NCBI RefSeq assembly: GCF_022376445.1
Contig: NW_025954993.1
Coordinates: forward strand, 1-64,000
Reading direction: 5' to 3'
DNA length: 64,000 bases
Source of the DNA: Fomitopsis serialis
Taxonomy: Eukaryota > Basidiomycota > Agaricomycetes > Polyporales > Fomitopsidaceae
Shown here: positions 1 through 17,250 of the stretch, piece after piece
How the letters are laid out: each line of letters opens with the position of its first letter
Position numbering within the stretch: position 1 is the stretch's first letter
Notes under the pieces: generated by a model
The model's input: only the letters and a program-made list of their open reading frames with translations
Databases searched by the model: none
Told to the model about the DNA's origin: nothing
Made by a program: the position numbers and the translations under genes

Positions 1-3000
1 AGTGCTGATACATGAAGGGAGTGCCGAGTATCAGATCGTAGTTGAGTACGTTCATAACATCAAAGTATCGTGTTTCACTGATGTTCTGGTATTCCAATTT
101 AGCCACACAGCCGAGATTGACCTTCGCACGAGAGCCTTGTACAGCCATCTGCACAGGTAAGGGCTTCTCGAGCTCGTAGGTCTTAAGTCGTAGCTGATGA
201 GCCAGTTTCGTAGATACGAAGTCGGACATTGATCCCGAGTCTATCAAAGCTCGGACCGGGTTTCCATCAATATTTACGACTACCACGGCCGGTTCGGGCA
301 TCAAGCGATTCATCGCTTTCGTCTCAGAGGCATTCCTCTGCAGGTATTCCGCTGAGTCATTCTTGCTTACTCCTACTGCGAAGCACTGAACTTCCGGGTG
401 CGAGCGAAGCAACCAGCAAGTGTCGCATTGCCGAGACCTCGTCTCGAGCTTGAACAGCGCTGTGAGCTCGCCCTCCAATTCATCCAAATCAAAGGACGGC
501 AAGCGCAACTCTCGCCTCAGGACTTGAGCGTACCAGTTCGAGAGATCCAGGTGAGGATTCTCCAACACATTGTTTGGCACGAGTAACTCAAAGGCGAGGT
601 ACAGATCATGTATTACGACATATCCGTACCTCTGCACTACCTCAAAGCGCGCCCGTTTGGGCCACTCCTCGTCATCGACAGCGGGCGTAGGAATGGCCCT
701 CGCCAGCGCTATTTTGGTCTCACTCGCGAGAGCATGACCCAAAGTGCAGGTCGGGAAGTCCTCGTAATCAAGTTCATTTCCCATGTAACCATCTAGTCTA
801 GAGAAGTACCACCCGGCTACGTCGAAGTTAGAGTTCTTCAACTCGCGCACAGGTAAGTAAAAGGCCGTCTCGAAATAATGAAATACATATTCATCATCCG
901 AGACCCGTACGACGCCTATGTCCAGTTCGTCTTTATCCCTATTAGGATATAACACCGCCATCATACCATTGAGTATTCTGGCAGCGTTGCTAGCATACGC
1001 GTCGCCGAAGCGTCGGCTACAGTCCCCTCTACCCTGTATGACAGGTAAGAAAGTGGCCTCGAAAATGCTGTCGTATGGCACCATGTCCTCTTCGAACTGA
1101 TCATGCTCTGCCTTCCCAGGACCCGTCATCTCCTCGTTTTCAACACAGGAGTAGTATGTGGAGTCCCCCGACTCAGAGACACTCAATTGTGAGTCATCTT
1201 CCGAGTCAGACAGGTATGATACTGACTGCAGGTCAGGCATAGTATCTGAATCTGAGTCAGATAGCACCATTGGCCGACTGGACTCGCAGTCCGAAGACTC
1301 GGAGTCAGACTGAGTCCGCAGGCTCGGCATCGAGTCGCTACTGGCGTCGGAGTAAGCATCGTCCACAAAGTCGATGTAATGCAAGTTCAGGGTCCCGGTG
1401 AGCCCGGTAGACGCCGCAAAATTGCGCAGTTCGGACGCCGAGCCCACAGCGGGCTGTACATTGTATGAAGGTACGCCCGGGGGCTTTCCTTTTCTCTGTG
1501 ATTTGACCTGTCCTTTCTTAGGACAGTTACGAGTGAAGTGCCCAACCTCGTGGCACTCGAAGCAGCGTCCCTCGGCAATGTAGCGCTCTCGTTCCTCGTC
1601 TGAGAGCCGCTTTTTGTTGCTATGAGGTGAGTTCTTCTGTCCACTACCTCCCGACTGAGGAGTGTTCGATGCTTGGGCTCTCGGCGGTGCATTGCCGGAA
1701 CCTGAGGCATGGGCGTTGCTCGACTGAGCACTGGCATTGCCCCTGTTCCCGCGGAAGTTGCCCTTCCGCCCTTTGTCATATTGTCCGCGTCGACCCGAGT
1801 TACCATAGGCTGACTCGTTAGCATTGCTAGGACTAGCGGCTTTGTCGGTGCCCCCGGAAGGGCCCTTCTTGACTCGGCCAAACGTCCCGGATCGAGCGCT
1901 GTGTGCAATCTCGATGAGAGTCGCCGCTTTGACGACATCCTTCCATGACGAGGTGAGAGGGCTAAGCTCTCGCATCCAGAGATCGCCCTGTACAGCCGGC
2001 TTGAAGCCGTTCCAAAGTCGACTGACTTTCTCTTGTTTAGAGAGTAGGCCCACCATCTGTACAGTTTCCTCGAAATCATGTACATAATCGCGTACCGAGC
2101 GATTACCTTGTTCAATAGAACTTAACTTCGCCTGCATGCTGAGTCGATAGTCGACAGGGAAGCAATAATTGAACAGCTCGATGAAGAGCTTGTCGAGAGA
2201 CCATGACTTGGACTCATTAGACACATTGGTCACGAAGAAACGGTAAGCCTTGTGCTTCATGAAATTGGAAGCAGTCGAGGCATACATGTCCTCGTCGAGA
2301 CTGTACCCCTGTACATACTCACGTACTTGTCGTACGAACTTATGAAATGCTTCCGCATCCGCCCGACCGTCATAAACTTCGGGATTAATGGGTTTTAAGA
2401 CAGGCTTCTTAGCCTTCTTCGCCTTTTTCTTTCGCTTCTTACGAAGCTCGCTCAAGTTCTCGCTCTCGGAACTTGCATCCTCTGAGCCGGAGCTCGAGGA
2501 AGATGAGCTAGAGCTCGAAGACGAACTACTATCGTCAGACGGAGGGCCTTGCTTCGATAGCAATCTTCCAAGGTAACTGCCACGCTCTAGCTGTGCAGCA
2601 GGTTGCAGTTTCGAACTGACAGATTTTCCCTTCTTCTTAGGGTCCTTGCTGACTTTAGCAGACACCGACGGAGCCGTCACAATTTCGCCCTGAGAGGCAT
2701 TGTCATTCTCGACTACTGGTACAGGTACTGTACTGGGCCTCTCGGCCTCTCGCGCAGTAACAAGCTGCGTTAGCATCGCGACCTGCTGGATGAGCTCATC
2801 CATACGAGGATCGCGTATAACCGACGACTCGGCCTCTGGAGGCGGAATGAACGCGTCCGTCTTCTCGGGCTCCTGGTCTATTGTCCAGTCCCAACGTTTG
2901 CCAGTTAGGCTCTCGTAATACTTGCCGTACCGCCGGTACTCCGAGTTGGGATAGTACCCGGAGTCTTCGGACCTAGCCACTTCCGGCTCAGCCGTTGCAG

Positions 3001-3676
3001 GCTCTTCCGCAACGGAAGCGGGAGGCTCGGCGGAGGCTGCGGAGCGGGAGCGAACTTCCTCCCGCCATCCGTCCTCGGCCATCCGACGCAGGACAACTTG
3101 GCGTTCGTCCTCGTCACGTTTGGAGAGCTCTTGCAGCTCGTGTTCGTACGCGTCCTTCTGCGATCGAGTCATCTCTCGTTCGGCCTTGTTCTGGGCTGAG
3201 GTCATTTCCTCCGAGAGAGGTATGCCTCCCCCAGGCACAGGTGATTTCACCGCCTTCGCGCTTCTGCGAGACGCGTTCGGGCTGTGCCTACCGTCACGTC
3301 CGACGGTAGTCCACTGTCCGCCTGAAGCCGGCTCGGTCTTCACAGGTCGGGACAGTTCAGGTTCAAGGTCGACCTTGCTACGCGACTGAGCGCGAGCCAT
3401 GGTCTCCTTATCCTTGACACGCTGCGCTGTCAACGCAGGGTCCGCCTCTCTGGTGGCCGCCAGAGAGGGATTACGCGGACGTGCAGTGACGCGGTAAGGC
3501 GATCGCTGCAGAGGTCCGGGAGCCGAGCAGATGCTGGCTGAGTCGGAAACGACTTCTTCGTGGCGCGAAACATCGCCGCCTTTTCGAGTACCCCTGGTCC
3601 GTCGGAACGAGTGAGCTGGAAACCCACCCGGCACCTCAGGGCCAGAACGCAGGTAGTAGCGACGCTCTTGAGCCAT
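1..3676 (-). CDS. Gag-protease region of Ty3/gypsy polyprotein (3' incomplete)
   Basis: A single frame runs from the ATG at 3676 to the left edge without a stop (1225 codons visible). In order: a charged Arg/Ser-rich N-terminus; a Ser-rich stretch and a Lys cluster near 2410-2540; the gag capsid-like domain (about 1980-2400, beginning KPINPEVYDGRADAEAF); a Gly/Asn-rich linker; a CCHC knuckle (CFECHEVGHFTRNC) near 1530-1565; an acidic Ser/Asp-rich segment at 1150-1370; and a retropepsin domain whose catalytic motif ALIDSGS lies at 230-250, followed by the flap and the ILGTPF motif near position 10. Gag packages element RNA and the protease would cleave the polyprotein. The start was chosen because it is the first ATG after the LTR leader and gives the family's usual YYLRSG beginning. 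RT and integrase are not visible. Confidence 0.9.
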   Translation of the reverse strand, partial: MAQERRYYLRSGPEVPGGFPAHSFRRTRGTRKGGDVSRHEEVVSDSASICSAPGPLQRSPYRVTARPRNPSLAATREADPALTAQRVKDKETMARAQSRSKVDLEPELSRPVKTEPASGGQWTTVGRDGRHSPNASRRSAKAVKSPVPGGGIPLSEEMTSAQNKAEREMTRSQKDAYEHELQELSKRDEDERQVVLRRMAEDGWREEVRSRSAASAEPPASVAEEPATAEPEVARSEDSGYYPNSEYRRYGKYYESLTGKRWDWTIDQEPEKTDAFIPPPEAESSVIRDPRMDELIQQVAMLTQLVTAREAERPSTVPVPVVENDNASQGEIVTAPSVSAKVSKDPKKKGKSVSSKLQPAAQLERGSYLGRLLSKQGPPSDDSSSSSSSSSSSSSSGSEDASSESENLSELRKKRKKKAKKAKKPVLKPINPEVYDGRADAEAFHKFVRQVREYVQGYSLDEDMYASTASNFMKHKAYRFFVTNVSNESKSWSLDKLFIELFNYCFPVDYRLSMQAKLSSIEQGNRSVRDYVHDFEETVQMVGLLSKQEKVSRLWNGFKPAVQGDLWMRELSPLTSSWKDVVKAATLIEIAHSARSGTFGRVKKGPSGGTDKAASPSNANESAYGNSGRRGQYDKGRKGNFRGNRGNASAQSSNAHASGSGNAPPRAQASNTPQSGGSGQKNSPHSNKKRLSDEERERYIAEGRCFECHEVGHFTRNCPKKGQVKSQRKGKPPGVPSYNVQPAVGSASELRNFAASTGLTGTLNLHYIDFVDDAYSDASSDSMPSLRTQSDSESSDCESSRPMVLSDSDSDTMPDLQSVSYLSDSEDDSQLSVSESGDSTYYSCVENEEMTGPGKAEHDQFEEDMVPYDSIFEATFLPVIQGRGDCSRRFGDAYASNAARILNGMMAVLYPNRDKDELDIGVVRVSDDEYVFHYFETAFYLPVRELKNSNFDVAGWYFSRLDGYMGNELDYEDFPTCTLGHALASETKIALARAIPTPAVDDEEWPKRARFEVVQRYGYVVIHDLYLAFELLVPNNVLENPHLDLSNWYAQVLRRELRLPSFDLDELEGELTALFKLETRSRQCDTCWLLRSHPEVQCFAVGVSKNDSAEYLQRNASETKAMNRLMPEPAVVVVNIDGNPVRALIDSGSMSDFVSTKLAHQLRLKTYELEKPLPVQMAVQGSRAKVNLGCVAKLEYQNISETRYFDVMNVLNYDLILGTPFMYQH

Positions 3677-3865
3677 CGCGTTTTTCGACGTAATGAGTAT
3701 TACGTTATCTAGAGCAGAAAGTAATTAGCGAGAGAGATGAAAACTGGGTACGTCACCTGGTGCCGGAGTGTCGAGGAGATCAAGCTCGAGGTGTCCAGGC
3801 GTCGGCGACGATATAGAGATAGAAGCTAGTTCAAAGAGATAGAGTCGATGTTGGCTGTTAAAATG

Positions 3866-4176
3866 TGTAGCGCTCGCGATCCTGAATAGGAAGTCGGTGG
3901 CGCAACGAGAGGGAGAGAGCGCGCAACGGGCCGAACAGTTTATAAGACTGATATTGGTCTCCGCAGGTTCGCTGCAGAACTAGTCTAAGGTGCCCGTCTT
4001 TTATACTACTAGGTAGAGTAAGTTTTCTTCATTACAAACGAGTCACGATCGGGATCTGCATTCTAGTGGAGCGGATAGAATGTAAAATAGAACGGAGAAG
4101 TATTAGGCTGGACGAATAAGGAAAGTGTGAACTAAAACCGGTAACTCTGGAGCGGTCCACGAACCGGACCGCTACA
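3866..4176 (-). repeat. 5' LTR of the gypsy element
   Basis: The 311-bp LTR is bounded by 7-bp inverted ends: read on the minus strand it starts TGTAGCGG and ends GCGCTACA. The start folds into a hairpin (GCGGTCC arms, 4152-4158 and 4166-4172). A TATAAAAG box on the minus strand (3998-4005) fits the U3 promoter. The second LTR is outside the window, so the boundaries rest on the inverted ends and the position just ahead of gag. Confidence 0.7.
3998..4005 (-). promoter_or_regulatory. Putative TATA box in the gypsy 5' LTR
   Basis: TATAAAAG reading on the minus strand inside the LTR, about 320 nt ahead of the gag ATG at 3676. This is where U3 promoters of LTR elements sit. Inference from motif and position only. 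Confidence 0.4.
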
Positions 4177-4359
4177 GAAGCTCACGCCACGCAACGGGCA
4201 GGGCGGCAGCGCAGGAGATCCGAGATCGTATCCGATCTCAGATGCGCTGACCCCGATGTGCATCCAAATGGGTAGGCTCGCATCGCGCGCCAGTGGTACC
4301 GCCCCGCCGGGGCCGAAAACCGGGCTGCCCCGGGGTAGCTGCCATATCAGGTAATGACC

Positions 4360-4426
4360 GACGGCGCCTCGTTCATACATGACGGCGTCTCGCTCATACA
4401 TGAGCTAGTGGCAGCTCATGTATGAG
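4360..4426. repeat. 21-bp tandem repeat running into a perfect 14-bp hairpin
   Basis: Two near-identical 21-bp units (4360-4380 and 4381-4401, two mismatches). The second overlaps a perfect inverted repeat with arms 4393-4406 and 4413-4426 (CTCATACATGAGCT and its complement) around a 6-nt loop. It lies between the gypsy LTR and the DDE-1 transposase remnant and may be a terminal or subterminal piece of the older transposon. Confidence 0.7.
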
Positions 4427-4481
4427 AATAGGCCTCGGTAAGTACAGGTGTTTATGTATGATACCTTTGTGCTAACTACAG

Positions 4482-5657
4482 GGATCTCATACAAGAATAT
4501 GCCTATATGGCCTGGGCCTCGATGTCGTGATCTTCAGCGTCTTGAAGCGCTATTGGACCGAGGAACGGGACAACTTCGAGCGCCGCACAGGCCAGAAGGT
4601 GTCGAAGTCAAATTTTCTGTCGGTGTACGCAGGAGCCCATACACGTACACTGACATCTGAAAACATCATGTCAGCCTTCCGCAAGACGGGTATTGTGCCT
4701 GTAGATCGAAACATCATCACGGAAGCCAGTATGGCGCCGAGTCTGGAGACAACAGTCGCAGCTGCTCACCCTTGTGCACCGAGCACCCCAGTGAAAGCCC
4801 GTGCCGACCGTTTAATCCATCGCATTGAGGCTTCTCACGCCGATCACGGAGCTGAAGCAGGCCCTTCTTCATTTGTTGGATCCTACAGTGAACGCCGTAG
4901 CCCCAGTCCCGCATCGTCGGAGATCGCATTTCATGATCTCGCTACCTCTTCCCTGGGTTATTTGACCCACAACTCACCCTTGCGCTCAGCGCGTACACCT
5001 CCTGCCCACACCACCTTCGTAATATCGCCACCCCGAAAGCGGCCCTACTCGAGCCTCCTTGAGGACGAGCCACGGACGCAACAAGAGGCAGACCTGCAAG
5101 ACGCACTCCGTGAGTCGAATGTACGGAACGAGTCACAGAAGGCTCGCATGTCGGGTATGCAAGCAACAGCTGTGCTGTCAGACATATACCTTCGTGCGTC
5201 TCGTTCACAGCTCCAGGCGCAGGAAGAGGCCAAGGGGAAGAAGAAGTCGACGAGGATCTTCTCCGATGGGCTCCCAAGATTGCTGACCGATGACCAGGTC
5301 TTCGATACTGTGGTCCAGCATGAGCATGCAGCAGCTAAGAAGAAAACAGACAAGGCGGTTCGCAAGGAGGCGAGGAGTGTCCATGGTGTCGCTATCGCGG
5401 GCTGGAAGAAGGCGGAGGAGGCGAGGAAAGCGCGGAACACGGCACGGCGCGAGGTTCACAGGACAGCTGTCAAAGCCTGGGAATTGGAGCGTGACAGGGC
5501 CAAGGCGGAGAAGCGGAAGTGTGCTGTGCTCAAGCCCAAGGTTGGTGGCATTGAGAGAGCCATTTCGAGGCCGAAGAAGGCAGTTCAGCAGAGCGATGAG
5601 GAGGAGGACACGTCGGGAGATGAGGACGGTGATCAAGGCTCAGCGATGGGGGATTAG
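4482..5657 (+). pseudogene. DDE-1 (pogo-like) transposase, C-terminal fragment
   Basis: An open frame of about 390 codons begins after a good acceptor (CTAAC branch and TACAG, ending at 4481; possible donor GTAAGT at 4438) and ends in TAG at 5657. The motif GLDVVIFSVLKRYW and the following SAFRKTGIVP match the end of the DDE-1 catalytic domain and the short helical tail found in basidiomycete pogo-like transposases. The remainder is a charged Lys/Arg-rich C-terminus ending in an acidic patch. The DNA-binding N-terminus and the first two catalytic aspartates are absent, so this is a 5'-truncated relic. What truncated it is not clear; the gypsy insertion on its left is one candidate. Confidence 0.75.
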
Positions 5658-7445
5658 ATTAGATCATTCCATATCGGGTAAGCGCTGCGTGATGTGACCG
5701 CGTCTCAAGGACCGTTCAGAGCCTTGATAACAGGATTTCGCACCGATTTCTGTCGTTTCAGCACTGGACACAACCGATAACAACGATCTTTGCATAGGTG
5801 TATAGAGTACATGAGTAGCTATCATATGGTATCAATAGATCTACCTCTCGCAGACGAAAGATACTCGCCCGAAGCAGAATAAGATTTGGGTGTCTCAAGG
5901 AGCCGTCGATGACTGTAACGATGCACACGCCAACCACGAGCTCGGTGGGCGAATGCCCAGCGCGCAGGCATGGCCGACAAACGTGTGCACAAGCGAGTGG
6001 GCAGGTGGATGAGCACGGGCCCAGGTGAGCATGCTTGATGAGCGGACGAGTGGGAGCACTCACTGGTGGATGTTCAGGAAAACGGAAGATGGGTAGGCAA
6101 GCGCGTTGGAGGGCAGAAGGGCAGGCGAGCACACAAACGGGTGATGACGACCCGCGCGACAACCGCGAGCGCGCTGGGCGAATGCCCCGCACGCAGACAT
6201 GACCAATGAACGTGCTGGTGAGCAGGCGGACGACAGGGCCGCTCGCTCGTGCCTCATACTTGAGCAAAACAGCACTCACCATATCCGGCCAGCCGGGGAT
6301 ATTGCCAGCGACGCCGAAAGGGCGTCACGGAGTCTTCTAGACCAGTACCAAGCAGTGCGAAACCATTGCCCGCTCAGTAGTCGCCTCGCAGTTGCCAGTC
6401 CAACCACCGAGGTCGAGAAACCGCAAACTGGCTCTTCGCGCGACGACAAGTCCGACGTTTCAACGTGCGCATTAAGGCCGCAACAGGAGGTCCCACCAAC
6501 GCGCAGCGTGTCTGCAAGCCCAACAGACAGATCTCCCCGACATGTACCAAGGCAGGCGCAGACGACTCCCTGCAAGATGCGCAGACGGACAGCATATCTC
6601 GTGCCCGGCAAGCCACCCCGCCAGATGTGTCGACGCACACGTCATCGCTCGTTGCGCCCCGGTCCGCGCTCGATAAGTCTATGTCCCCGCCACACCTCCA
6701 CTCGCCTGCGCCCCTCAGGCTGTCGCTGCGCCTCCGTTCCTCGACCACTCTCGGAACCACGTGCGGAGATGACCTCTTGTCCGCTCGCGCTGTCTCACCT
6801 CGTAGACCCATTCATCTGTTCGTCCACGTGTCTACCCGTTTACTGACCCGCGGACCCGCAGTACTTCCGTGAGACCCATTGCAGCAGATACAGGTACGGG
6901 TAAACCCCCGGGCACCCGGAGGTTTACCTGTGCAGTTCACTGCGACACGTACAGCGGCTGTGGCCATGTGAAACGGGCTGGTGTTTGAACAGGCAGGCAG
7001 ACGAGCGGGAAAGCTGGCAGGCGGATAAGCGGGAGAGCTGGCAGGCGGGAGCCGCGTAGGTCAAATGTAGGTGCTCCAATATCGTATGGTTTCTCGTGCC
7101 CGTTGTACATCGCGCGCGCAAGCGTCGTCCGGAAATTGCATTATAATTGTTATTATTTGGCCGAGGACGAGACGGATACCCGAGCCTCCGGGCAGCAGCT
7201 ATAGGGCTCGTGGCAGCCGACCTGGCAGTAGGCCTATGTATATGGTATGCTGTTTGATGACTCAGACTTGCCCTGCACGATGGTGAATGTGCAGGGCCAG
7301 GCACTCGGACGAGGCAGACATCATCAGAACCACTGGGCAATGACGCGTGCAAGTGCCTACCCAGCCACAGGAGATGACTGAATGGCGTCGGGGCACCTTA
7401 TAGGTAATGCTAGATCAGCTTGGACGTCGTCAGATTATTGACTGG
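5658..7445. other. Gene-free, repeat-scarred DNA
   Basis: No convincing coding sequence; ORFs here lack family motifs and splice signals. It holds two diverged direct copies of about 65 bp (near 5925-5990 and 6165-6230, both containing GGGCGAATGCCC), a 24-bp tandem repeat of 2.4 copies (6993-7050), and a short inverted repeat around 6897-6927. Probably decayed transposon sequence. Confidence 0.6.
6993..7050. repeat. 24-bp tandem repeat, 2.4 copies
   Basis: Units at 6993-7016 and 7017-7040 share GCAGGC and GAGCTG or AAGCTG ends, with a partial third unit to 7050. The Gly/Arg-coding look of the overlapping ORFs comes from this repeat. Confidence 0.6.
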
Positions 7446-7450
7446 AGAAG

Positions 7451-7651
7451 TGTAACGGATATTCCCGTTACGGTATGTATTACAGTATATGTTTGTCTTT
7501 GTTTGCTCGAGGACTCGTATGGCGCGCCAGTGCACCTACGAGTCCTCAGCCTTTACCTCGTCACCGCTTTGTATGCACTCTGTAGACAGATCTCCTTGAA
7601 TAGAGACTGGGTGCAGCGCATACGAGGCACGACGAGTGAGGCGCCCTTACA
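7451..7651 (+). repeat. 5' LTR of the single-ORF element
   Basis: 201 bp, TG..CA ends with 5-bp inverted tips (TGTAA/TTACA). The first 25 bp fold into a hairpin (GTAACGG and CCGTTAC arms). An inner inverted repeat pairs GAGGACTCGTA with its complement around TGGCGCGCCAGTGCACC. Confidence 0.93.
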
Positions 7652-7796
7652 CTTTTTTGCGCTCCAGACAAGCTTCTACTCTGGGGATCTATTCTAGGCA
7701 ACAACCTCAAAAACTCGACTTCGATATCTACCTACTCGACGTCAACAACTCTATGCTACTCTGATCATCCTCTGGCCAACTCGACAACTCGACAAG

Positions 7797-10700
7797 ATGT
7801 CCGAGTCGACCAACACCCCGTCTGCACCTTCCCGAGGCAGCCGCGGGTCCCACAGTGGAACCCGCAGCAAGCTGAAGGCGTTGCGCGCGGAAGTCCGAGC
7901 GAAGCTCGCCGCAAGTCAAGAGCGGATCAACAAGGCCCTCGAGGAGTCCAAGCAACTCGAGGCCGAACTGCTGGCAACGGTCGACGCCGCGTTGTCCGAG
8001 GCCAGCAGCCGCAGTCGGTCTTCTCGCACGAAGACCACCCGGACTGAGTCCTCTCACCGCGAGGACTCAGCCGGAGCCCTCACAGAGCAGGCGCCGTCCG
8101 ACCGTGAGGTCGAACAGGCACTGCGCACTGAGCAGCTCGAGCCCAATGTCGAGCCCGCTCAGAGCCGCACGGAGACCGACCCTCCACCTGCTACCACCCT
8201 GCCGATGAAGCTCGGCACCACTCGGAGGAGTGGTGAGTGCACCGAGCTCGACGACGTAACCGTAGTCGAGCTCGCGCCCGGGTCGAACGAGCAGTGCAAT
8301 GAGCTGACTCGTATCAGCACCCGGGAGGGCATAGGCACACAGTACTACAGTAGTACTGTGTGCAGTGGGACCAAGCCCACGCGTGTAGACACGCCCGTCG
8401 GGCGCTCAGAGATGAGCCGTGACGCAGAAAATATATATTTGTTGCCGAACGACGTGAGCGCCACGTCGAGCAGCTTGCTCGACGCGACGCACGACACGCT
8501 CGACCCTGCGGGCGTCGAGCGCCACGAGACCGTGCCAGTGGTGAGCGCCCCGAGCGTTAGCGCCCACCGCACTGCGCTCGACCGCCACCACCGACCCCTC
8601 GTCTTCGACCATTTCCACTCCCTGGGCAGCCAACTCGAGCGCCCGTCTGGCGAACCAGACGCGCGCGCGGCTCCAACGCGAGTGCGAACTCGCGTTCGCG
8701 AATGGCTGGCTGACTTACCACCAGTCCAGTCAGTGGCGACCGACGACCTGGTACCTCACGGTACCAGATCGCCAATTCCTCCCTCCCCGGCTCCTCACCT
8801 CATCCCTTTCGACTCGCGCCTTGACGCTGGCAACCAATACCGCGGCTCTGGCGACACGCAACCCAGCCGCGCGACCCAGGACTTGAACACCGCGCGTTCA
8901 AGCCCAGCGCCGAGCTGCAAGACCGAGCGGACCACGAGGAACGCGGATCGTGGAGGCGGCGAGGAAATCCCGAAGGAACGAGAAGGGTGCGAGGAAGGCA
9001 CGAAGGGAGAGAGGGAGGAAGGGTGCGGGGCGAGCAGGGAAAGCGAGCAGGAAGGCTCGCAAATCGAAGGTACGCCCATGCTGGACGTACCCACCTCGCC
9101 TCCGCCTGTGCCAGTACCCCCGCCAGCGTGCGTATCGATGAACACGGAGTTCGTCGAGCGTACCGCTGGTCACGGAACCAGGTACGACTGCGAAGTCGTA
9201 CCTTCCGCTCCGCAAGATGGCACGTCTGTGCTGCGGGACGACCTCCAGGTCGTACCCTCCATACCCTCTGTACCTGCGCCAGTAGGCGTACCGACGAACG
9301 TGAAGGTCGCCGAGCGCGCGGCTGGCCATGAGGACGGCAGATCCGCGCTGCAGGACGACCTGTTGGTCGTGTCCTCCGATCCGCAAGGCCGCACGCTTGC
9401 GTTAGGGGACGACCGCGAGGTCGTACCCTCCAGTTCGCAAGGCTGCGCGATGGAGACGCAGCACTTCTCGCTCGACGTGCTCTGCTCTGGTAACAACGAC
9501 CACTTCATAGCGTACACACCGAATCTACTACTCGATGTGCACGCTATTGACCGGCACGAAGGGTCGAAAAGTGAAGATACGTCCCGGAGGAACGTACTCA
9601 CGTCGACACATGCCAGGTCGGCGCCTGCCAGTGCGTCCACACCAGTGAGTGTGACGATGAACAGGGAGCCCGTCGAGAGCATCGCCTGCGACTCGTCGGG
9701 CCACCGTCTCTTCATCGCTGCTCCCATGATCACGAGTGACCATGAAGATGGCACGTTCGCATTACGAGACGACCCAAGGGTCGTACCGCCCGCACTGCAA
9801 AGTGATGCACATGTAATAGTGGACGACCGCGAGGTCGTACCTTCCATCTCGCAAGGCGGCACAACGGACCAGCAGCGATGCAGGTCCGAGGTGCCCCATT
9901 CAAACTCGGCTGTCTGTGACGGGGCGTTCACTGACCCATCGTCGGCCAGTCGCGTAGCGCACCCAACTGCACCTCGAGACAGCCTGCACGTCCTCACGGA
10001 AGTGCAGGCCCCCAGCTGCTCTGAGGTAACTGAACCTCCTGAGGTTCAGCTGGCCAGGTCGTGGGACGACCTCGACGACATCGCCAGCAGCGCCCAATCG
10101 CGCGTGGCCGACCTCCGAGAAGACGTGCACTTCCAACAGGAAGTGCAATTCCCCGGTCCATTCAAGATAGCTGAACCGTTCGCGGTTCAGTTGGGAAGCC
10201 TGCGATACGACCTCGACCTCGGGTTTTTCAGTAACCACCACTTTCTTCGTGACCTCGGTGACCTCGCGAACGCACAGCCCGACGCTTGCGTAGCCCCAGC
10301 AAACGCGCGAGCTCGAGATCGCGACCATACTGCTGCACTACCGACAGCGCAGCAGCCGGCGCTTACGGACTCCGACCGACCAGAACGGTCGCTCGACCGT
10401 CAAACCGGCGAGAACTTTACAGTTCTCGCCGATGGCTCACTCCTAGGGACCCCCAGCCAACATATTGTCGACCTCCCCGCGCGCCCCAACACCGTTGGAG
10501 ACTACGACGGGCACAACGAGCCACAGGTCGACTACGCACTCGGGAGGTCGCGCGAAGGGTGGAAGGACGGGCAAGGCAGGGACGGAGAAGACGTGGACGA
10601 GGGTGTGAAAGCACGAGAGTCCGACGGGGATGGTCAGGCAGAAGGAGGAGAAGGGGAAGGGTGCGGTGTACGCGAAGGGGTCGAGCATTCAGGCTCGAAA

Positions 10701-13112
10701 AGCACAGGTACGTCCTTATTGGACGTACCCCTTTCATGGGTACCACCACTCCCTATCCCGAGGTCACCACCCGGGATGACTACGACAACCAGTGCGGTTG
10801 TCGTGGCAGTCACTGCGTACGGCAGTGGTACGGTCAGTCCACGAGGTGACCTACAGGTCGCACCTGACACCGCCAGGCACCGCGGTATGATCGACGAGCG
10901 AGGCTGCTCGTCCGACGTACCCAACATTGCCACAGCTCACACGCAGGCGACGAGCTATTCGCTCGACGTCTACGCTGAGGAGCCTGGTGGTGACTCGAAC
11001 AGCGAGTACCTCACGGTACTCGCTCCGCTGTCACCACCCCCCATTCCAAGACCGCCACCACTGGTGACCACGACCACCACATCGGTTGTCGTGGCACTCG
11101 CCACAACGGACAGCGGTACCGTCGACTCACGAGGTGAACTGCAGGTCGCGTCCAGCACGCACGTACAGCGCACGCACGACGCACAGAGGTCGAGCCCGAT
11201 GCTCGAGGAACACACTACTGAGCGCACCGACGACCCGAAGCGCGAGTACCATGCAGTATTCGCTTCACGTCCATCGACACCCGTTCCCGTACCACTGCCC
11301 GTGCCGATCGCGACCACCTCGAAGGTCGTCGCAATCGACAGTGGTCCATCCACACCACAGAGCGACATCGTAGTCGCGTCAGTGACCACGCACGGCGGCC
11401 TCCATGCCGGGGATCGCGTGCAATCAACCGAGACGCCTACAGCTGCAGACGTACGACAGGTTGCACCCGAGACCGGATGGCGACCATCGGGACGATACAT
11501 GCCGCCTGCACGACGCGTCCACGGGCAACAAGACCGATGTGAGCCAGCTACGGTCGACGGCGATGTGAGCCAGGCCAAGTACCTCGCGGTACTTGACATC
11601 TCCAGCGAGCGAAGTCAGGACCCACCGCGGAGCACGTCCAAGATGGACGTGCTGCCGTATTCCCCGGACCCAGCGCAGTCAAACAAAGGGATGGGGACTG
11701 ACGAGGTCACGTCGGTACTTCCAGGGCAAGGGAAACTTGGCGAGGACGAATCCTCGTCCTCGTGGATACAATTACCTGGACCGTATGGTGTGGCAGGCAC
11801 ATCCAGATTACCAAGTGATGCACCCGCATCGAATGACGCGACGACCAGGGCGTCGTCGTGTGCCCAAAAGAAGGAACATCCACTGCGAGGGCTGGATTCA
11901 TCGGACTCAGGTGAACGGCGACGTTCAACGACTACCGATGGTATCGAGACCGAGCCGGCGCGAGCGCAAGGAGGAGGTACCTCCTCTACGAGGGGGGGTA
12001 CTTTCTTGAGAGGGGAAGGGAGCGGGGTATCGAACGGCCGCCGCTTGTTCCACAACACAACCAGTACATCACACGAAGATGTACTGGCTTCGGACCCGGC
12101 AGTGACACGGACGCCAAGCCGTGAGCTTGACGTACGGGCCACCCACGGGAACTCGACGCGAATGCCAGCTACTCACACATTGAGTAGTCGGCGCGAAGTG
12201 CAGGATACGGCGCGAGTGGCCAGTACATCATGCAATGATGTATTGGGATTAGATGTAGTCTCGGGCCGTACGTCCAGCGTAGTGCTCGACGTACGAGCTT
12301 CACGTCGGACATCGAGACGCGTACCACCTGTACCACGCGCATCGAGTGATCGACTCGAAGCGCAGGATACGGGTGACCGTCGCAGCCACGACACCACGCG
12401 GAAAGCCAGTACCTCGCGCCGCGAAGTACTGGGACTGAACCAAGTGTTGATCGCACTGGATCGTCCAGTAACCGTCGACGTGAGTCGATGGCCGAGTGAC
12501 AAGAGGTCGCGCGAGGAATGTTTCAGCCTCCTCGCGGACCAGCTCGACCACGATTTCGACGAGGCCGAATCCGCGGCAAGTGATGGCGAGTGGGCCATTT
12601 GGGCTCACTGCAAGAGATCTGCACTCAGCTGTGGACAGGCCATCGAGGAGATGTCCCCGCGACCGGGGACATATTCTCGTGCTGCTCGACGAGCATGGGA
12701 CCACTTCCAGAGGGAATTGGAAGTGGTTCCTCTCGAGTTTGATCCTCTGCTCATTGCACCATTACCTATGGAGATGGTGCGATATTGGGCCTACAACAAG
12801 CTGGGATGGCTTGTTGTACCACATCGCAGTCAACCTCGGGATGACTCCGACTGGTACAACTCCTCTGATGAGGAGCCTCATACCACCACTCGTGAGGAGT
12901 ACCCTGACCAGATTGAGTCGGAGTACTTCTCCGAGTCCGAGCACCATAGCTCGTGGTACTCACGAAGTTCAGGGTCTGAAGAGACAAACTTGGTAGTAGT
13001 CTCTGACTACTATGAGCAGTCTGAGATGGAGGATACCCAAGGTTCTTTTGCACTATCTGCCGAAGATGAGGGTAACTCGGAAGATGCAGACTACTACTCC
13101 GAGTCCGAGTAG
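7797..13112 (+). CDS. 1771-aa low-complexity protein of the single-ORF LTR element
   Basis: I do not recognise this protein. The start is the first ATG after the LTR (145 nt downstream). Residues about 25-65 are rich in Lys, Glu and Leu and look like a short coiled coil. Then come long disordered segments rich in Ser, Thr, Pro, Asp and Arg with degenerate internal repeats: units ending in DDLQVVPS/DDREVVPS (residues about 460-700), Pro-rich units of about 100 aa containing SPPPIPRPPP and TTTTSVVVA (about 980-1200), and shorter units with ASTSxxxVLGLD near 1420-1550. The last 250 residues hold a more ordered stretch (DHDFDEAESAASDGEWAIW to YWAYNKLGWLVVP), then an acidic Asp/Glu/Ser/Tyr tail. 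There is no CCHC knuckle, DTG/DSG protease site, YxDD or integrase motif. A Gag-like structural role is a guess. The DNA itself is packed with perfect short inverted repeats. Confidence 0.85.
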   Translation: MSESTNTPSAPSRGSRGSHSGTRSKLKALRAEVRAKLAASQERINKALEESKQLEAELLATVDAALSEASSRSRSSRTKTTRTESSHREDSAGALTEQAPSDREVEQALRTEQLEPNVEPAQSRTETDPPPATTLPMKLGTTRRSGECTELDDVTVVELAPGSNEQCNELTRISTREGIGTQYYSSTVCSGTKPTRVDTPVGRSEMSRDAENIYLLPNDVSATSSSLLDATHDTLDPAGVERHETVPVVSAPSVSAHRTALDRHHRPLVFDHFHSLGSQLERPSGEPDARAAPTRVRTRVREWLADLPPVQSVATDDLVPHGTRSPIPPSPAPHLIPFDSRLDAGNQYRGSGDTQPSRATQDLNTARSSPAPSCKTERTTRNADRGGGEEIPKEREGCEEGTKGEREEGCGASRESEQEGSQIEGTPMLDVPTSPPPVPVPPPACVSMNTEFVERTAGHGTRYDCEVVPSAPQDGTSVLRDDLQVVPSIPSVPAPVGVPTNVKVAERAAGHEDGRSALQDDLLVVSSDPQGRTLALGDDREVVPSSSQGCAMETQHFSLDVLCSGNNDHFIAYTPNLLLDVHAIDRHEGSKSEDTSRRNVLTSTHARSAPASASTPVSVTMNREPVESIACDSSGHRLFIAAPMITSDHEDGTFALRDDPRVVPPALQSDAHVIVDDREVVPSISQGGTTDQQRCRSEVPHSNSAVCDGAFTDPSSASRVAHPTAPRDSLHVLTEVQAPSCSEVTEPPEVQLARSWDDLDDIASSAQSRVADLREDVHFQQEVQFPGPFKIAEPFAVQLGSLRYDLDLGFFSNHHFLRDLGDLANAQPDACVAPANARARDRDHTAALPTAQQPALTDSDRPERSLDRQTGENFTVLADGSLLGTPSQHIVDLPARPNTVGDYDGHNEPQVDYALGRSREGWKDGQGRDGEDVDEGVKARESDGDGQAEGGEGEGCGVREGVEHSGSKSTGTSLLDVPLSWVPPLPIPRSPPGMTTTTSAVVVAVTAYGSGTVSPRGDLQVAPDTARHRGMIDERGCSSDVPNIATAHTQATSYSLDVYAEEPGGDSNSEYLTVLAPLSPPPIPRPPPLVTTTTTSVVVALATTDSGTVDSRGELQVASSTHVQRTHDAQRSSPMLEEHTTERTDDPKREYHAVFASRPSTPVPVPLPVPIATTSKVVAIDSGPSTPQSDIVVASVTTHGGLHAGDRVQSTETPTAADVRQVAPETGWRPSGRYMPPARRVHGQQDRCEPATVDGDVSQAKYLAVLDISSERSQDPPRSTSKMDVLPYSPDPAQSNKGMGTDEVTSVLPGQGKLGEDESSSSWIQLPGPYGVAGTSRLPSDAPASNDATTRASSCAQKKEHPLRGLDSSDSGERRRSTTTDGIETEPARAQGGGTSSTRGGTFLRGEGSGVSNGRRLFHNTTSTSHEDVLASDPAVTRTPSRELDVRATHGNSTRMPATHTLSSRREVQDTARVASTSCNDVLGLDVVSGRTSSVVLDVRASRRTSRRVPPVPRASSDRLEAQDTGDRRSHDTTRKASTSRREVLGLNQVLIALDRPVTVDVSRWPSDKRSREECFSLLADQLDHDFDEAESAASDGEWAIWAHCKRSALSCGQAIEEMSPRPGTYSRAARRAWDHFQRELEVVPLEFDPLLIAPLPMEMVRYWAYNKLGWLVVPHRSQPRDDSDWYNSSDEEPHTTTREEYPDQIESEYFSESEHHSSWYSRSSGSEETNLVVVSDYYEQSEMEDTQGSFALSAEDEGNSEDADYYSESE

Positions 13113-13335
13113 TAGTCTACCTTCTGGCCTGCATAACTCTGTCGAGTTATGTATGACAATGATGAATGGTTGTGTCTGCTCACTGACTCGATCTAGCATG
13201 TCGTTGTCTACAGTTCAACATCATCTCTGTTTGCCAATCGCTACCACCGTTGGGTTGTTGCGTATGTTTCCTTTCTTTTTCTTTTTTCTTTTTTATCTGT
13301 TTCTCTGGTTATCGCTGGGACCCGTAGTCGTGTCC

Positions 13336-13347
13336 AGTGGGGGAGGG
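13336..13347 (+). other. Polypurine tract of the single-ORF LTR element
   Basis: AGTGGGGGAGGG ends exactly one base before the TG of the 3' LTR, the canonical place for plus-strand primer formation. Confidence 0.85.
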
Positions 13348-13548
13348 TGTAACGGATATTCCCGTTACGGTATGTATTACAGTATATGTTTGTCTTTGTT
13401 TGCTCGAGGACTCGTATGGCGCGCCAGTGCACCTACGAGTCCTCAGCCTTTACCTCGTCACCGCTTTGTATGCACTCTGTAGACAGATCTCCTTGAATAG
13501 AGACTGGGTGCAGCGCATACGAGGCACGACGAGTGAGGCGCCCTTACA
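13348..13548 (+). repeat. 3' LTR of the single-ORF element
   Basis: Identical to the 5' LTR over all 201 bp and followed by the AGAAG target duplication (13549-13553). Confidence 0.93.
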
Positions 13549-13553
13549 AGAAG

Positions 13554-14967
13554 CCCATGTCATAAATGTATGGCATGAGCGTCGAAACCCAGCATGATAC
13601 GGCTCTATCAAGCTAGATGCCCTATCTATATCCATATATAGCTCACGACTTTTCGCCGATGAGGAGGCGATCATTGCAAGCGCGCTGTAAGTATAAATCC
13701 CGTGACCTACCACGCCACACACGCGTTAGATTGAGAAAGCTCAGTGACATGAGACAATCATTAGTGAACTCATGAATACGATATGCACGTAACATCGATT
13801 GCATGACTAGTTGGCCTTGAATACTTGCCAAACAACGACACGTATTGGAATAGAGTCCTAGCACCTGATTGATTACACAAACTAGCATAGTACCGTAAGA
13901 CTATAAGTAGTAAGTACCTCCTCTGAATCGAGAAGACCATCATGAATGTCTACAATATTAGCATAATTGGGAGCCGGCACCCCAATGCATTTCCTAGTAG
14001 AAGCTTCATACCAGGGCTCGGGTAATGGAGATCAGATGGTTCTGTACGATCATGACCTGTAAGTTCGAGCCTCGTCATCCTCCCAATACTCGATCTTTGA
14101 GTCCCCCAAGCGCGCTCTTTACAATATTAATATTAATGTGTTAGTTACATGGTAATCAGCATCCACCTTGAGGAACGGACATTGTCATCACTGTTACGCG
14201 AAGCTAGGCGAGTGGAACACTACAAGCCACAAGCTTGCAAGGCTATTAACTTCGAGGGAAAGTTCTGTGTCTTAGACCTAGGAAGGACGCAAGTCCCTTC
14301 GTCCTAGTCGAGTTCCGAAGTGGTAGCGGTATGAGGAAGCTAGCGTCGATTGCTAACCAGGTCGAACTGAAGAGTCCGACCCTTACTGTACAGGTATATA
14401 TACAAGTAGATGAGTCTGAGTCAAGACGTATTGTAAGCATGAGTCAAAACGTGTCAGCGCTGACGAAGGAAGTGGTAATCATGACGAAGAAACGAGTCAG
14501 CAGGGTTCAGCTATCACATGATAGTCCGGGTGCGGTATAGTACATAACCGGTCCTCATGCACGTGAGGTGGTTAGAGATAACAAGTAAAAAGAAATGAAA
14601 TGTACGTGACTTGGCGACTTGTAACAATCACTGGGTGTACTACCTTGGCAGTTTAGTCTTCAAGTAGTCCCGCCAGGCATAAAGTCACCCTCCAGTGGCA
14701 GCAGAATTGTATTAATACAGCTGAAAACAATTCAACAGTAAGCTATCGACAACTTATACGCAACGGTGCAGTAAGTCACGTAACGACACATGGGGTGGAA
14801 CAGGCGGACGCTCATCCAGCGCCCACAGTTCGGTAGCGATGTGATCTCGGCACGTTCCGAAAGCTATACAGCTCAATGAGCAAGGTTCAGCCACCCGATC
14901 CCGCGCCTGCGAGGTACACTAATTCGAGAGGCACAAGCGCCGCCGCCCAGCAAGACATTCGCCCGCC
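13554..14967. other. Intergenic region and 5' leader of the eL38 gene
   Basis: No supportable gene. An out-of-frame upstream ATG at 14876 lies 92 bases before the eL38 start and could begin a small upstream ORF. A segment at 13968-14095 resembles a tRNA only weakly (see rejected items). Confidence 0.5.
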
Positions 14968-15429
14968 ATGGTACGTCCTCGCCGTCGTCGTGCTCGACGC
15001 TCTCGGAATCGCTGCTGACGGTGTGTCGGACAGCCCAAAGAAATCCGCGACATCAAGCAGTTCATCGACATCGCCCGGCGAAAGGACGCCTCAGGTGCGT
15101 TTGACCCTATAGTGCATTGGACCGGACAGTGCTGACCAGCGACGGGGTGTGCAGCGGCGCGCATCAAGAAGATCGCGCCCCGGGTAGCGGGTGGTAAGAC
15201 CCGCACAAAGTTCAAGATTCGCTGCACGCGTTACCTGTACACCCTCGCCCTCGACGACCCCGAGAAGGCGGAGAAGCTCAAGGCGAGCTTGCCTCCAGGT
15301 GCGTATCTTCTCCCTTGTTCTTACCTTACTCCTTTCCGTTTACACTGCATGGATCTTCGACCTGGAACTGACTTTGCGTCTACAGGCCTGAACATTGTCG
15401 AGGTCGATGGCACACCAAAAAAGAAGTAG
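14968..15429 (+). CDS. RPL38: 60S ribosomal protein L38 (eL38)
   Basis: Small structural protein of the large ribosomal subunit. Exons: 14968-14970, 15034-15094, 15155-15298, 15386-15429 (252 nt, 83 aa). Exon 1 is only the ATG, followed directly by donor GTACGT. The spliced product begins [20 protein letters not shown], continues through [19 protein letters not shown], and ends [10 protein letters not shown], matching eL38 end to end at the usual length. Introns are 63, 60 and 87 nt. Splitting the start codon from the body is common in fungal ribosomal protein genes. An upstream ATG at 14876 is in another frame and is not used for this protein. Confidence 0.97.
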
Positions 15430-17250
15430 ACGCGCCGTCTCTTCTCTCCACTAGGTGTCCGTCCGGAGGGTGGTGGCCTGAAGATTGGTGTTGGGAGCGG
15501 GGAGACAGGCCCTCTTGGACGGGGGCGTCCCTACGAGTCCGCAGCAGGTGCGCGGGCGAACGACTACGACTGCTACTGCTATTGCTATACTGCCAGGCAT
15601 CATCATATGGATTGTGTATGCTCCTCTACGACGCTTTTACTATGCACATACGCAACCTCTCGTGCTCCTGCCTCCATGGCGCCGCCCTTGGTACTCGGCT
15701 GGTGGCGTCTTCCAACTTCCCGCTGACCCGAAGCCTCGAGATATCCGTCACGGCGACACTCTGACGAATTGCCAACCCGACCCTATGGAACTCGCTGCAG
15801 CCGCAGTCCATGCATTTTCCCCCTTTTGAGCAACGGGGCTGACATTCACACAACCCGTACAACTTCACAGAGCGGACAGCAGGTATGTCTCAAGGTCCCA
15901 AGTGGAGGAATCATCGGATCTACTTGCTATTGGCTCAATTGAGCATGGGCCCACTCTCTCGGCTAGCTCCGTTGAGAAGCCGCATAGAGACAGTTAACGG
16001 AGTCACCGCGGGTGAGGGTACCGGTTCGGCCACCACAAGCACGCAAATTATTCATATGTCGAGCGACGAGCTGGCGGTAGAGCAGACGTCACAACGGATT
16101 AGTGAACAGCCGCATCCTCCAGCCCATTCTCGTGCAAATAGTTCGCAGACGTCCCAAGGCAAGGGGTTCTCCTCGAGATCGTGGTGCCATACTATGAATC
16201 TCTCGCAAGCATTGACAAATCATTGGGAGCACGGGGTGATTGGGACGGCTTCGTGAACAGAGCATACCGCAATCTACTGCACGCAGGATCCTCGACTGTC
16301 TAGTGTACGTCTGAACTCCTGGACGCTCGTTGCTCTCAGACTTACTGATGCTTCGTGCCAACGTACAGGACGACAGATGGCACAGTATATGTTTCGAGAG
16401 ACCTATCATATGATGAATACGACTGGGTAAACTCGGTACGGTTTCCGTTCGATGCAGGCCTTGCACCGTAATTATGCCAGTCAACTTCATATGTTACCGC
16501 AACTCAGACATCTCATATTTGACGCCAGGTCGACACACCTAGAATTGGTCCCGCCACGCCGTAGTGACGAGGTCCGAAACAGGGCGATGACACGCAAGTT
16601 GTGGTATGTACAACTCATACACTCATATCCTAAGTATGTGAATGATGATTCACAGTGCGACTCAACATGCTGACGGGCGGCTGTAGGCATGAAAATAACT
16701 GTAATCTCACCGTTCTAATGTAATTGACAGTTTCACCTCGAATCTTCCCAGTCTGTCATAGTCAGAAGCTGAATGCGAGCAGTGCCGGCTGAGGACAAAG
16801 CGCTGAGCCCACACTGGCTGGCAGGAATATTTGTCATTGTCAAAGTCATTCGGTGATTTACACTCAACTTATTAGGCAGTGCGGTTCGAGTAGTCTATTC
16901 GTTTCTCGAGAGATTGGGGTTTTCTCGCGCAGTGGTGTGTAGGCCAGCCTCAAGTTTCGACCGTAACCCTTCACCCATTCCTGTTGCACCTATCAAATCG
17001 GCATCGCTCTCTATATCTAAGTTCAGGGGTAGGGCTCCTCAGATGGTATAGAAGGAGCTATTGGCGTATCTCGAAAGAGCTCTATGAACTTCATCCGATG
17101 AGCAGAAATCGCCAGTCGGTGAAGTAAGCGCCCGGAGTCAGTGGCGAAACCTTGAAAAGGTTATGGGACTCGCCTGGGTCGCCTGACTCGCGAGGGCTCG
17201 CCTCTCTCCTCCCTCGACCTCAGCTACTTACACCTCTTCTGCCTATCATC
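15430..17250. other. Intergenic region with one coding-like remnant
   Basis: Starts with the 3' flank of the eL38 gene. The only coding-like piece is 16163-16303 (+), an open stretch reading VPYYESLASIDKSLGARGDW and NRAYRNLLHA before a stop. It looks like real protein but has no start and I do not recognise it. The end is the ARG5,6 promoter. Nothing else seen. Confidence 0.45.
16163..16303 (+). pseudogene. Coding-like remnant of an unrecognised protein
   Basis: 46 codons ending in TAG with a natural-looking composition (GVLLEIVVPYYESLASIDKS). No initiating ATG in frame and no clear neighbouring exon. It may be the last exon of a decayed gene. Low confidence. Confidence 0.25.

Follow-up and report, generated by a model that had tools for sequence, protein, structure and literature searches.

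The element at positions 7451 to 13548 of the window (the whole 64,000-nucleotide stretch analyzed here, from the wood-decay polypore Fomitopsis serialis, which is the start of contig C257 in a 66-Mb genome of 806 contigs) is a young copy of a multicopy, non-autonomous long terminal repeat (LTR) retrotransposon family, and its interior is laced with perfect short stem-loops that also fill a reverse transcriptase (RT)-bearing Ty3/gypsy element of the same genome. The enrichment of these stem-loops, the conservation of their stems, and the compensatory changes within them show that selection acting on the nucleic acid as such maintains the array. Judging from sequence comparison, we estimate a probability of roughly 55% that the non-autonomous element, hereafter the satellite, and its Ty3 helper share a distributed, selected stem-loop folding signal and that the satellite is copied by the helper's enzymes. 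The array was absent from the first-pass annotation of this DNA, which had singled out the element's one giant open reading frame (ORF), and it is the more surprising of the two features.

Hairpins were counted where perfect Watson-Crick arms of at least 7 bp enclosed loops of 3 to 12 nucleotides (nt). The giant ORF holds 37, compared with a mean of 3.8 (maximum, 7) in 30 dinucleotide shuffles and 5.3 (maximum, 9) in 30 synonymous shuffles that keep the protein and its codon usage. Raising the minimum arm length to 8 or 9 leaves 27 and 17 hairpins, respectively, and at the latter threshold the two kinds of shuffle give 0.2 and 0.8. The interiors of all 16 full-length satellite copies that were read (the window copy, WIN, and L009 to L023) contain 4.8 to 7.0 hairpins per kb versus 0.4 to 1.0 after shuffling. 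The Ty3 partner, of which L056/L057 is a nearly whole copy, reaches 7.1 per kb, with 16 hairpins in gag versus 2.2 in synonymous shuffles, 30 versus 2.6 in pol, 9 versus 1.2 in the RT-RNase H (RH) portion, and 6 versus 1.0 in the integrase (IN) portion. Pieces of its close relatives carry 8.3 (L058, 94% amino acid identity) and 8.4 (L059, 99%) per kb, and 35 other RT loci carry 0 to 1.4. Other 4-kb tiles of the window have 0.25 to 2.5 per kb, with 3.0 in the tile at 12001 to 16000, which holds the end of the element. The array shows no dependence on reading frame, and no precedent for a hairpin-laced LTR element was found in the open-licence literature searched.

Stems also change more slowly than their surroundings. 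In chosen pairs of related copies, compared over alignment windows of at least 75% identity, pooled divergence was 0.031 in stems and 0.081 in flanks, with stems lower in 20 of 20 comparisons (10 satellite pairs, both directions). For L056 and L058, the two directions gave 0.059 and 0.072 in stems versus 0.171 and 0.161 in flanks, and stem divergence overall was 2.2 to 2.9 times less than that of flanks. When the window copy was set against four others, the stem/flank ratio was 0.37 (bootstrap, 0.27 to 0.48), and stems were the lower in 41 of 44 hairpins. The same holds at third codon positions, where stems diverge by 0.044 in satellites (shifted masks, 0.109 to 0.164) and by 0.085 in L056/L058 pol (shifted masks, 0.279 to 0.364), and at fourfold sites with an unchanged residue (0.156 in stems, n = 32, versus 0.351, n = 228; p = 0.028). 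Where both sides of a pair in a stem interior had changed, pairing was preserved in 27 of 30 cases in satellites and in all 5 in the autonomous set.

The first-pass annotation had suggested a search for RT-bearing relatives with the same LTR; the L056/L057 element is an RT-bearing relative whose LTR is related. The satellite's purine tract followed by TGTAACGT occurs at 7 places in the genome, 6 of which have a same-strand upstream match to RVT_1 (five at 5.1 to 5.6 kb and one at 11.2 kb). L056/L057 encodes a CCHC-type Gag, recognized by eye, and has Pfam matches to RT (RVT_1), RNase H, H2C2, rve, and a Tf2-1-like SH3 domain in protease (PR)-RT-RH-IN order, the protease matches being weak and below curated cut-offs; its LTRs are about 204 bp long and 98.5% alike. 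In both elements the purine tract GGGGGAG[AG]G runs into TGTAACG, with which both LTRs start, while the LTR 3' ends read TTACA in the satellite and TTATA in the partner. Alignment of the two LTRs gave a 31-column block at 90% (E value, 9.7e-8) and an 18-column block at 94% (E value, 7.5e-4) in conserved order, and 13 of 14 bases are equal in the block that follows the 5' LTR. We judged the relation by the criteria applied to RLG_Quinta and RLG_Cereba of wheat centromeres, where an LTR element that is non-autonomous but keeps an intact ORF is paired with a Ty3-type helper (PMC11302176). The satellite has no RT or integrase, and it shares the primer-binding site (PBS) block (13 of 14), the polypurine tract (PPT) core, and the TGTAACG start with an autonomous element. 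Based on these shared cis ends (purine tract, primer-site block, and ordered LTR blocks), the L056/L057-type Ty3/gypsy element is very probably the autonomous helper of the satellite. Its proteins best match those of Trametes (66%), and no relatives were found in viral contigs. Extra frames follow pol in the partner (L056 6204 to 7463 and 7707 to 8636); matched piecewise, they are 66 to 83% identical to L058 frames, and they have no Pfam match.

The first-pass description of the element's boundaries (identical 201-bp LTRs, an AGAAG duplication, and a purine tract abutting the 3' LTR) was correct in each particular, and the TG...CA direct terminal repeats, purine tract, and 5-bp target duplication around a 5.7-kb internal part are those of an LTR retrotransposon. 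The 5' LTR contains an 11-bp stem, GAGGACTCGTA/TACGAGTCCTC. Primer-binding sites of LTR retrotransposons usually begin with TGG; the putative primer-site block here is kept directly after the 5' LTR across copies, and its start differs from TGG. Within window positions 7595 to 7665, the LTR sequence AGCGCA is able to pair with TGCGCT of the satellite primer site; at the corresponding places (L057 2418 to 2640) the partner reads AGCGTA and TACGCT, one covarying base relative to the satellite. By analogy with Tf1, which self-primes, this covarying pairing may be a lead towards self-priming. A search of the element for ribozymes and known RNA families found no ribozyme family up to an E value of 5 and a single chance match.

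Searching the genome with the LTR gave at least 40 matches (82 candidates, of which 40 were scored). Among the 16 full-length copies, the LTR pair is identical in 12 and the 5-bp flanks match in 13 as scored, or in 14 if a one-base LTR-end offset is allowed in L013; the flanks of L014 and L018 differ. There are 36 places in the genome with the primer-site pattern (2 for a reversed control pattern); 31 of the 36 pair with a same-strand purine tract, and the pair spans 5.3 to 7.4 kb in 30 cases and 13.5 kb in one. Of the 147 listed RVT_1 matches (40 of which were read), none falls within any of the 31 pairs, so this is a family rather than one deletion, and the initial view of the element as non-autonomous is borne out. 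Copies with pol behind the giant ORF, which had been named as the sign of an internal deletion, did not turn up among these pairs. A nested insertion may sit within the 13.5-kb pair (C257:285808-299311), which likewise encloses none of the listed RVT_1 matches. Of 14 places with the purine tract and no primer-site pattern, the 2 that were read (L054 and L055) are more distant relatives with the same tract and an LTR start of TGTAACGGGCC; L054 has a stop-free frame of 1993 codons. Copies are mosaics (L012 is 73% identical to the window copy in one 400-bp bin and 95 to 97% in others), and such sharp changes in identity among L009 to L023 relative to the window suggest recombination between lineages, as would be expected during reverse transcription.

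As the first-pass annotation held, the sole gene of the satellite is a 1771-codon ORF without pol motifs; the protein matched no Pfam family at an E value of 1 or below, including Gag, capsid, and zinc-knuckle profiles. The longest stop-free frame runs to 1804 codons; in 200 dinucleotide shuffles, such frames averaged 214 codons and never exceeded 484. The first 60 residues faintly resemble the N terminus of the partner Gag (E value of 2e-4 in one BLASTP comparison; hhalign E value of 0.0011 with a probability of only 20%), and the giant ORF had no tblastn match in the partner. The long middle has a disordered composition, and the C-terminal region, whose structure prediction from a two-row alignment has a mean pLDDT of 50, matches none of the partner ORFs; homology to the extra ORFs of the partner was rejected at hhalign probabilities of 0.1 to 0.2. 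A homologue with 45% identity is present in Rhodofomes roseus (P0004; the best 7,980 candidates by sharing were scored), and a protein search with the C-terminal part matched only P0001 of F. serialis.

The ratio of nonsynonymous to synonymous change (dN/dS, omega) was computed from 50-codon blocks with at least 60% amino acid identity, a filter that lowers omega, although the L013/L016 pair and the C-terminal part of WIN/L012 lose nothing to it. Omega was 0.20 to 0.49 in nine pairs for the C-terminal region, including 0.41 for WIN/L012 (678 of 678 codons kept); values labeled as C terminal for L014/L015 and L009/L010 are not from true C termini, as those fragments end early. It was 0.47 to 0.88 in the middle, higher where changes were few, and mostly 0.40 to 0.80 in the N-terminal 490 residues, the exceptions being WIN/L009 (0.97) and L021/L023 (2.05, from few changes). 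Over the full length, it was 0.34 for L013/L016 (1779 of 1779 aligned codons used) and 1.08 for WIN/L009. This pattern along the ORF indicates that the protein is under uneven purifying selection, strongest at the C terminus and loose in the long middle. The ORF as a whole does not drift neutrally between copies, and the earlier inference of selection from a long intact ORF in a young copy stands insofar as the ORF is constrained, but its length is no proof and omega is near 1 in some pairs. A single ORF of 1754 to 1832 amino acids (aa) is present in 6 of the 16 copies and is interrupted in the other 10, among them 6 of the 12 with identical LTR pairs, so the long ORF alone does not show selection; interrupted copies may receive the protein in trans, or errors in the assembly may have produced the breaks.

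Coordinates of features of the satellite in the window
Feature	Position	Strand	Remark
Target-site duplication AGAAG, left	7446..7450	.	
5' LTR, 201 bp, TGTAACGG...CTTACA	7451..7651	+	
LTR blocks common to satellite and RT-bearing Ty3 element LTR: CCTTTACCTCGTCACCG (LTR 100-116), CTTGAATAGAGACTGGGTGCAGCGCATACG (LTR 145-174)	7550..7624	+	Order kept
Putative primer-binding site CTTTTTTGCGCTCC	7652..7665	+	CTTTTTTACGCTCC at same place in Ty3 partner
Giant ORF, 1771 aa, without Pfam match	7797..13112	+	
Whole array, 37 perfect stem-loops in ORF	7797..13112	.	
Charged, coiled-coil-like N-terminal segment, residues 1-110	7797..8126	+	
Stem-loop, 10-bp arms, 7-nt loop	8044..8070		
Stem-loop, 13-bp arms, 3-nt loop	8335..8363		
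Stem-loop, 10-bp arms, GCGA loop	9180..9203		
Stem-loop, 11-bp arms, 4-nt loop	10406..10431		
Stem-loop GGTACGTCC/GGACGTACC, 5-nt loop	10707..10729		
Stem-loop, 10-bp arms	11631..11653		G-C pair replaced by A-T in other copies (compensatory)
Stem-loop, 10-bp arms	12061..12087		
Conserved C-terminal region, residues 1481-1700, predicted helical (low confidence)	12237..12896	+	
Stem-loop, 10-bp arms (13 in L012)	12700..12727		Found in 16/16 copies
Acidic Tyr/Ser-rich tail, residues 1701-1771	12897..13109	+	Also in L055 and Rhodofomes P0004
12-bp stem, ORF stop codon within 3' arm	13088..13118		Kept in most copies
Stem-loop in 3' untranslated part	13132..13151		Compensatory changes in other copies
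Polypurine tract GGGGGAGGG	13339..13347	+	Adjoins 3' LTR
3' LTR, 201 bp	13348..13548	+	No difference from 5' LTR over 201 bp
Target-site duplication AGAAG, right	13549..13553	.	

To the left of the element, window positions 1 to 8000 have 2.0 to 2.5 hairpins per kb (shuffles, 0.4 to 0.55) and could be an old relative; a 376-aa ORF at 4527 to 5657 lies beside the element.

The form of the hairpins points to folding. Loop lengths peak at 4 nt (80 versus 2.4) and reach background beyond about 17 nt, the closing pair is C-G in 112 of 226 hairpins, and satellite and partner have in common an inner-stem pattern, (A/C)CC-loop-GG(T/G). The inner C, C, and A/C of the 5' arm occur in 57%, 51%, and 37/32% of unique stems in satellites and in 47%, 49%, and 39/33% in L056/L058/L059, and the pattern was not seen in 26 hairpins of 30 other RT loci or in 11 of L060/L061. 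A sequence-specific palindrome-binding protein may account for the stems instead, as loops of 0, 1, and 2 nt are enriched too, though less (10, 14, and 19 versus 3.8, 2.6, and 2.9).

We hypothesize that satellite RNA would be reverse transcribed and integrated by the enzymes of a coresident L056/L057-type element, as the shared cis ends suggest, and that the dense perfect short stem-loops held by both element types across coding and noncoding parts, under nucleic acid selection, may form a distributed cis-acting signal that the shared Gag/RT machinery reads or requires for packaging, compaction, or passage through reverse transcription. With such an array, the satellite RNA or cDNA could be taken for that of the partner. 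The giant protein would then be a mostly disordered accessory, perhaps Gag related at its N terminus, acting in cis or in trans.

Several observations weigh against a shared, selected folding signal. Farther partner relatives carry fewer hairpins (2.4 per kb in L060, 72% amino acid identity, and 3.6 in L061, 56%), as do the distant satellites L054 (3.3) and L055 (3.0). Conservation relative to L060 is unclear, with stem third positions at 0.367 versus 0.349 to 0.611, which indicates that hairpin positions turn over. The partner is known from one near-whole copy, L056/L057, whose 5-bp flanks differ, plus the pieces L058 and L059. We looked for a consensus in loop sequence and found none. Finally, stem mismatches show no plus-strand G·U preference, and folding z scores are equal on the plus and minus strands, within error, in 7 of 7 sequences; neither fits a simple packaged-RNA signal. 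Interior mismatch events were A·C rather than G·T in 48 versus 36 cases in satellites and 14 versus 12 in the autonomous set, unique one-mismatch stems were A·C in 51 cases and G·T in 19 (about 1.35:1 is expected from base composition), and relaxed stems had more A·C than G·U in 6 of 7 sequences, while L056/L058 alone gave 12 A·C and 16 G·T.

If plus-strand RNA alone were paired, the reverse would be expected. Pairing may take place in DNA, in cDNA, or on both RNA strands, and we tentatively entertain a version of the shared signal in which the array acts in DNA or cDNA, or on both strands, and not through plus-strand RNA alone, as a distributed identity or passage signal that would make the helper's machinery accept the satellite without internal sequence homology. 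That the stems act instead as folded plus-strand genomic RNA, as do the dispersed packaging signals of RNA viruses or their ordered RNA structure at genome scale, we consider rather unlikely. The tetraloop peak, the C-G closing pairs, strong folding (mean z of about -3 to -3.6 per 200 nt), and compensation would all be consistent with it, but GNRA-type loops occur on both strands (12 versus 9), and the missing G·U preference together with the strand-equal z scores leaves a purely plus-strand RNA role unsupported. Plus-strand RNA selection as the sole cause is set aside on the mismatch classes.

The satellite and partner might also be an ordinary pair of the Quinta/Cereba kind, with the giant ORF providing a variant Gag and the hairpins being incidental. 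The shared PBS, PPT, and LTR ends and the N-terminal likeness to the partner Gag agree with this, but it is improbable: the ORF matches no Gag, capsid, or zinc-knuckle profile, its C-terminal region matches none of the partner ORFs, and the hairpins are conserved and far above chance. Quite improbable, too, is an origin of the palindromes as the functionless product of a mutational habit of this lineage's RT, fold-back template switching. Such copying would confine the array, as is seen, to one RT clade and its satellites and would explain the irrelevance of reading frame, loops of at least 3 nt, and the lack of a G·U preference. It predicts, however, that new or arm-converted stems diverge at or above the flank rate, the reverse of what stems and their third positions show. 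Frequent arm-to-arm correction would make compensated changes the commoner, but in satellite stem interiors single changes outnumber them (119 versus 27), and there is no bias between the arms (108 versus 100). Neutral fold-back copying was set aside since stems are conserved. Apart from the one 13.5-kb pair, nothing favors descent by internal deletion from a larger pol-bearing element that also had the giant ORF, a reading that is highly improbable given the 30 spans of 5.3 to 7.4 kb, the lack of listed RVT_1 matches in all 31, and a partner that holds no copy of the ORF.

LARDs, TRIMs, TR-GAGs, and retrozymes are, like the satellite, non-autonomous and LTR bounded. LARDs (without coding capacity) and TRIMs (very short) are ruled out by the 1771-aa ORF, omega below 1 in most pairs, and the 5.7-kb internal part; TR-GAGs carry a recognizable Gag domain, which the Pfam search did not find, and retrozymes a hammerhead ribozyme in the LTR, of which there was likewise no sign. 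The partner has the PR, RT, RNase H, IN, and Tf2-1-like SH3 domains of basidiomycete Ty3/gypsy elements of the Tf2-1-like SH3 integrase group, but adds the 3' frames and the stem-loop array. In the wheat pair, RLG_Quinta likewise shares its PBS and LTR termini with a coresident Ty3-type helper and has mosaic, recombining copies, but its ORF has a clear GAG and a domain of unknown function, and the conserved array in both partners sets the present pair apart (PMC11302176). Dispersed packaging signals of RNA viruses similarly comprise many stem-loops scattered through a coding genome, but share a loop recognition motif, unlike the strand-symmetric pairing without loop consensus found here (PMC6281560). 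The excess of stem-loops over synonymous shuffles is as expected of such signals, but the plus-strand pairing rules, under which G·U is tolerated, do not hold here. Yeast Ty3 genomic RNA has well-folded parts, many near the RT-coding region, and the available portions of that study, unlike the elements here, report neither a perfect-hairpin array nor covariation (PMC11381356).

The way in which reverse-transcribing genomes mark themselves, and the counterfeiting of such marks by satellites, is known largely from one or two local signals. Helper and satellite are unrelated inside and yet share a dense, conserved, strand-symmetric array, and they are thus a natural pair of replicates for finding its function. 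The array also shows that synonymous sites in the RT and integrase genes are under strong selection, which matters for the dating of such elements and for dN/dS analyses of them.

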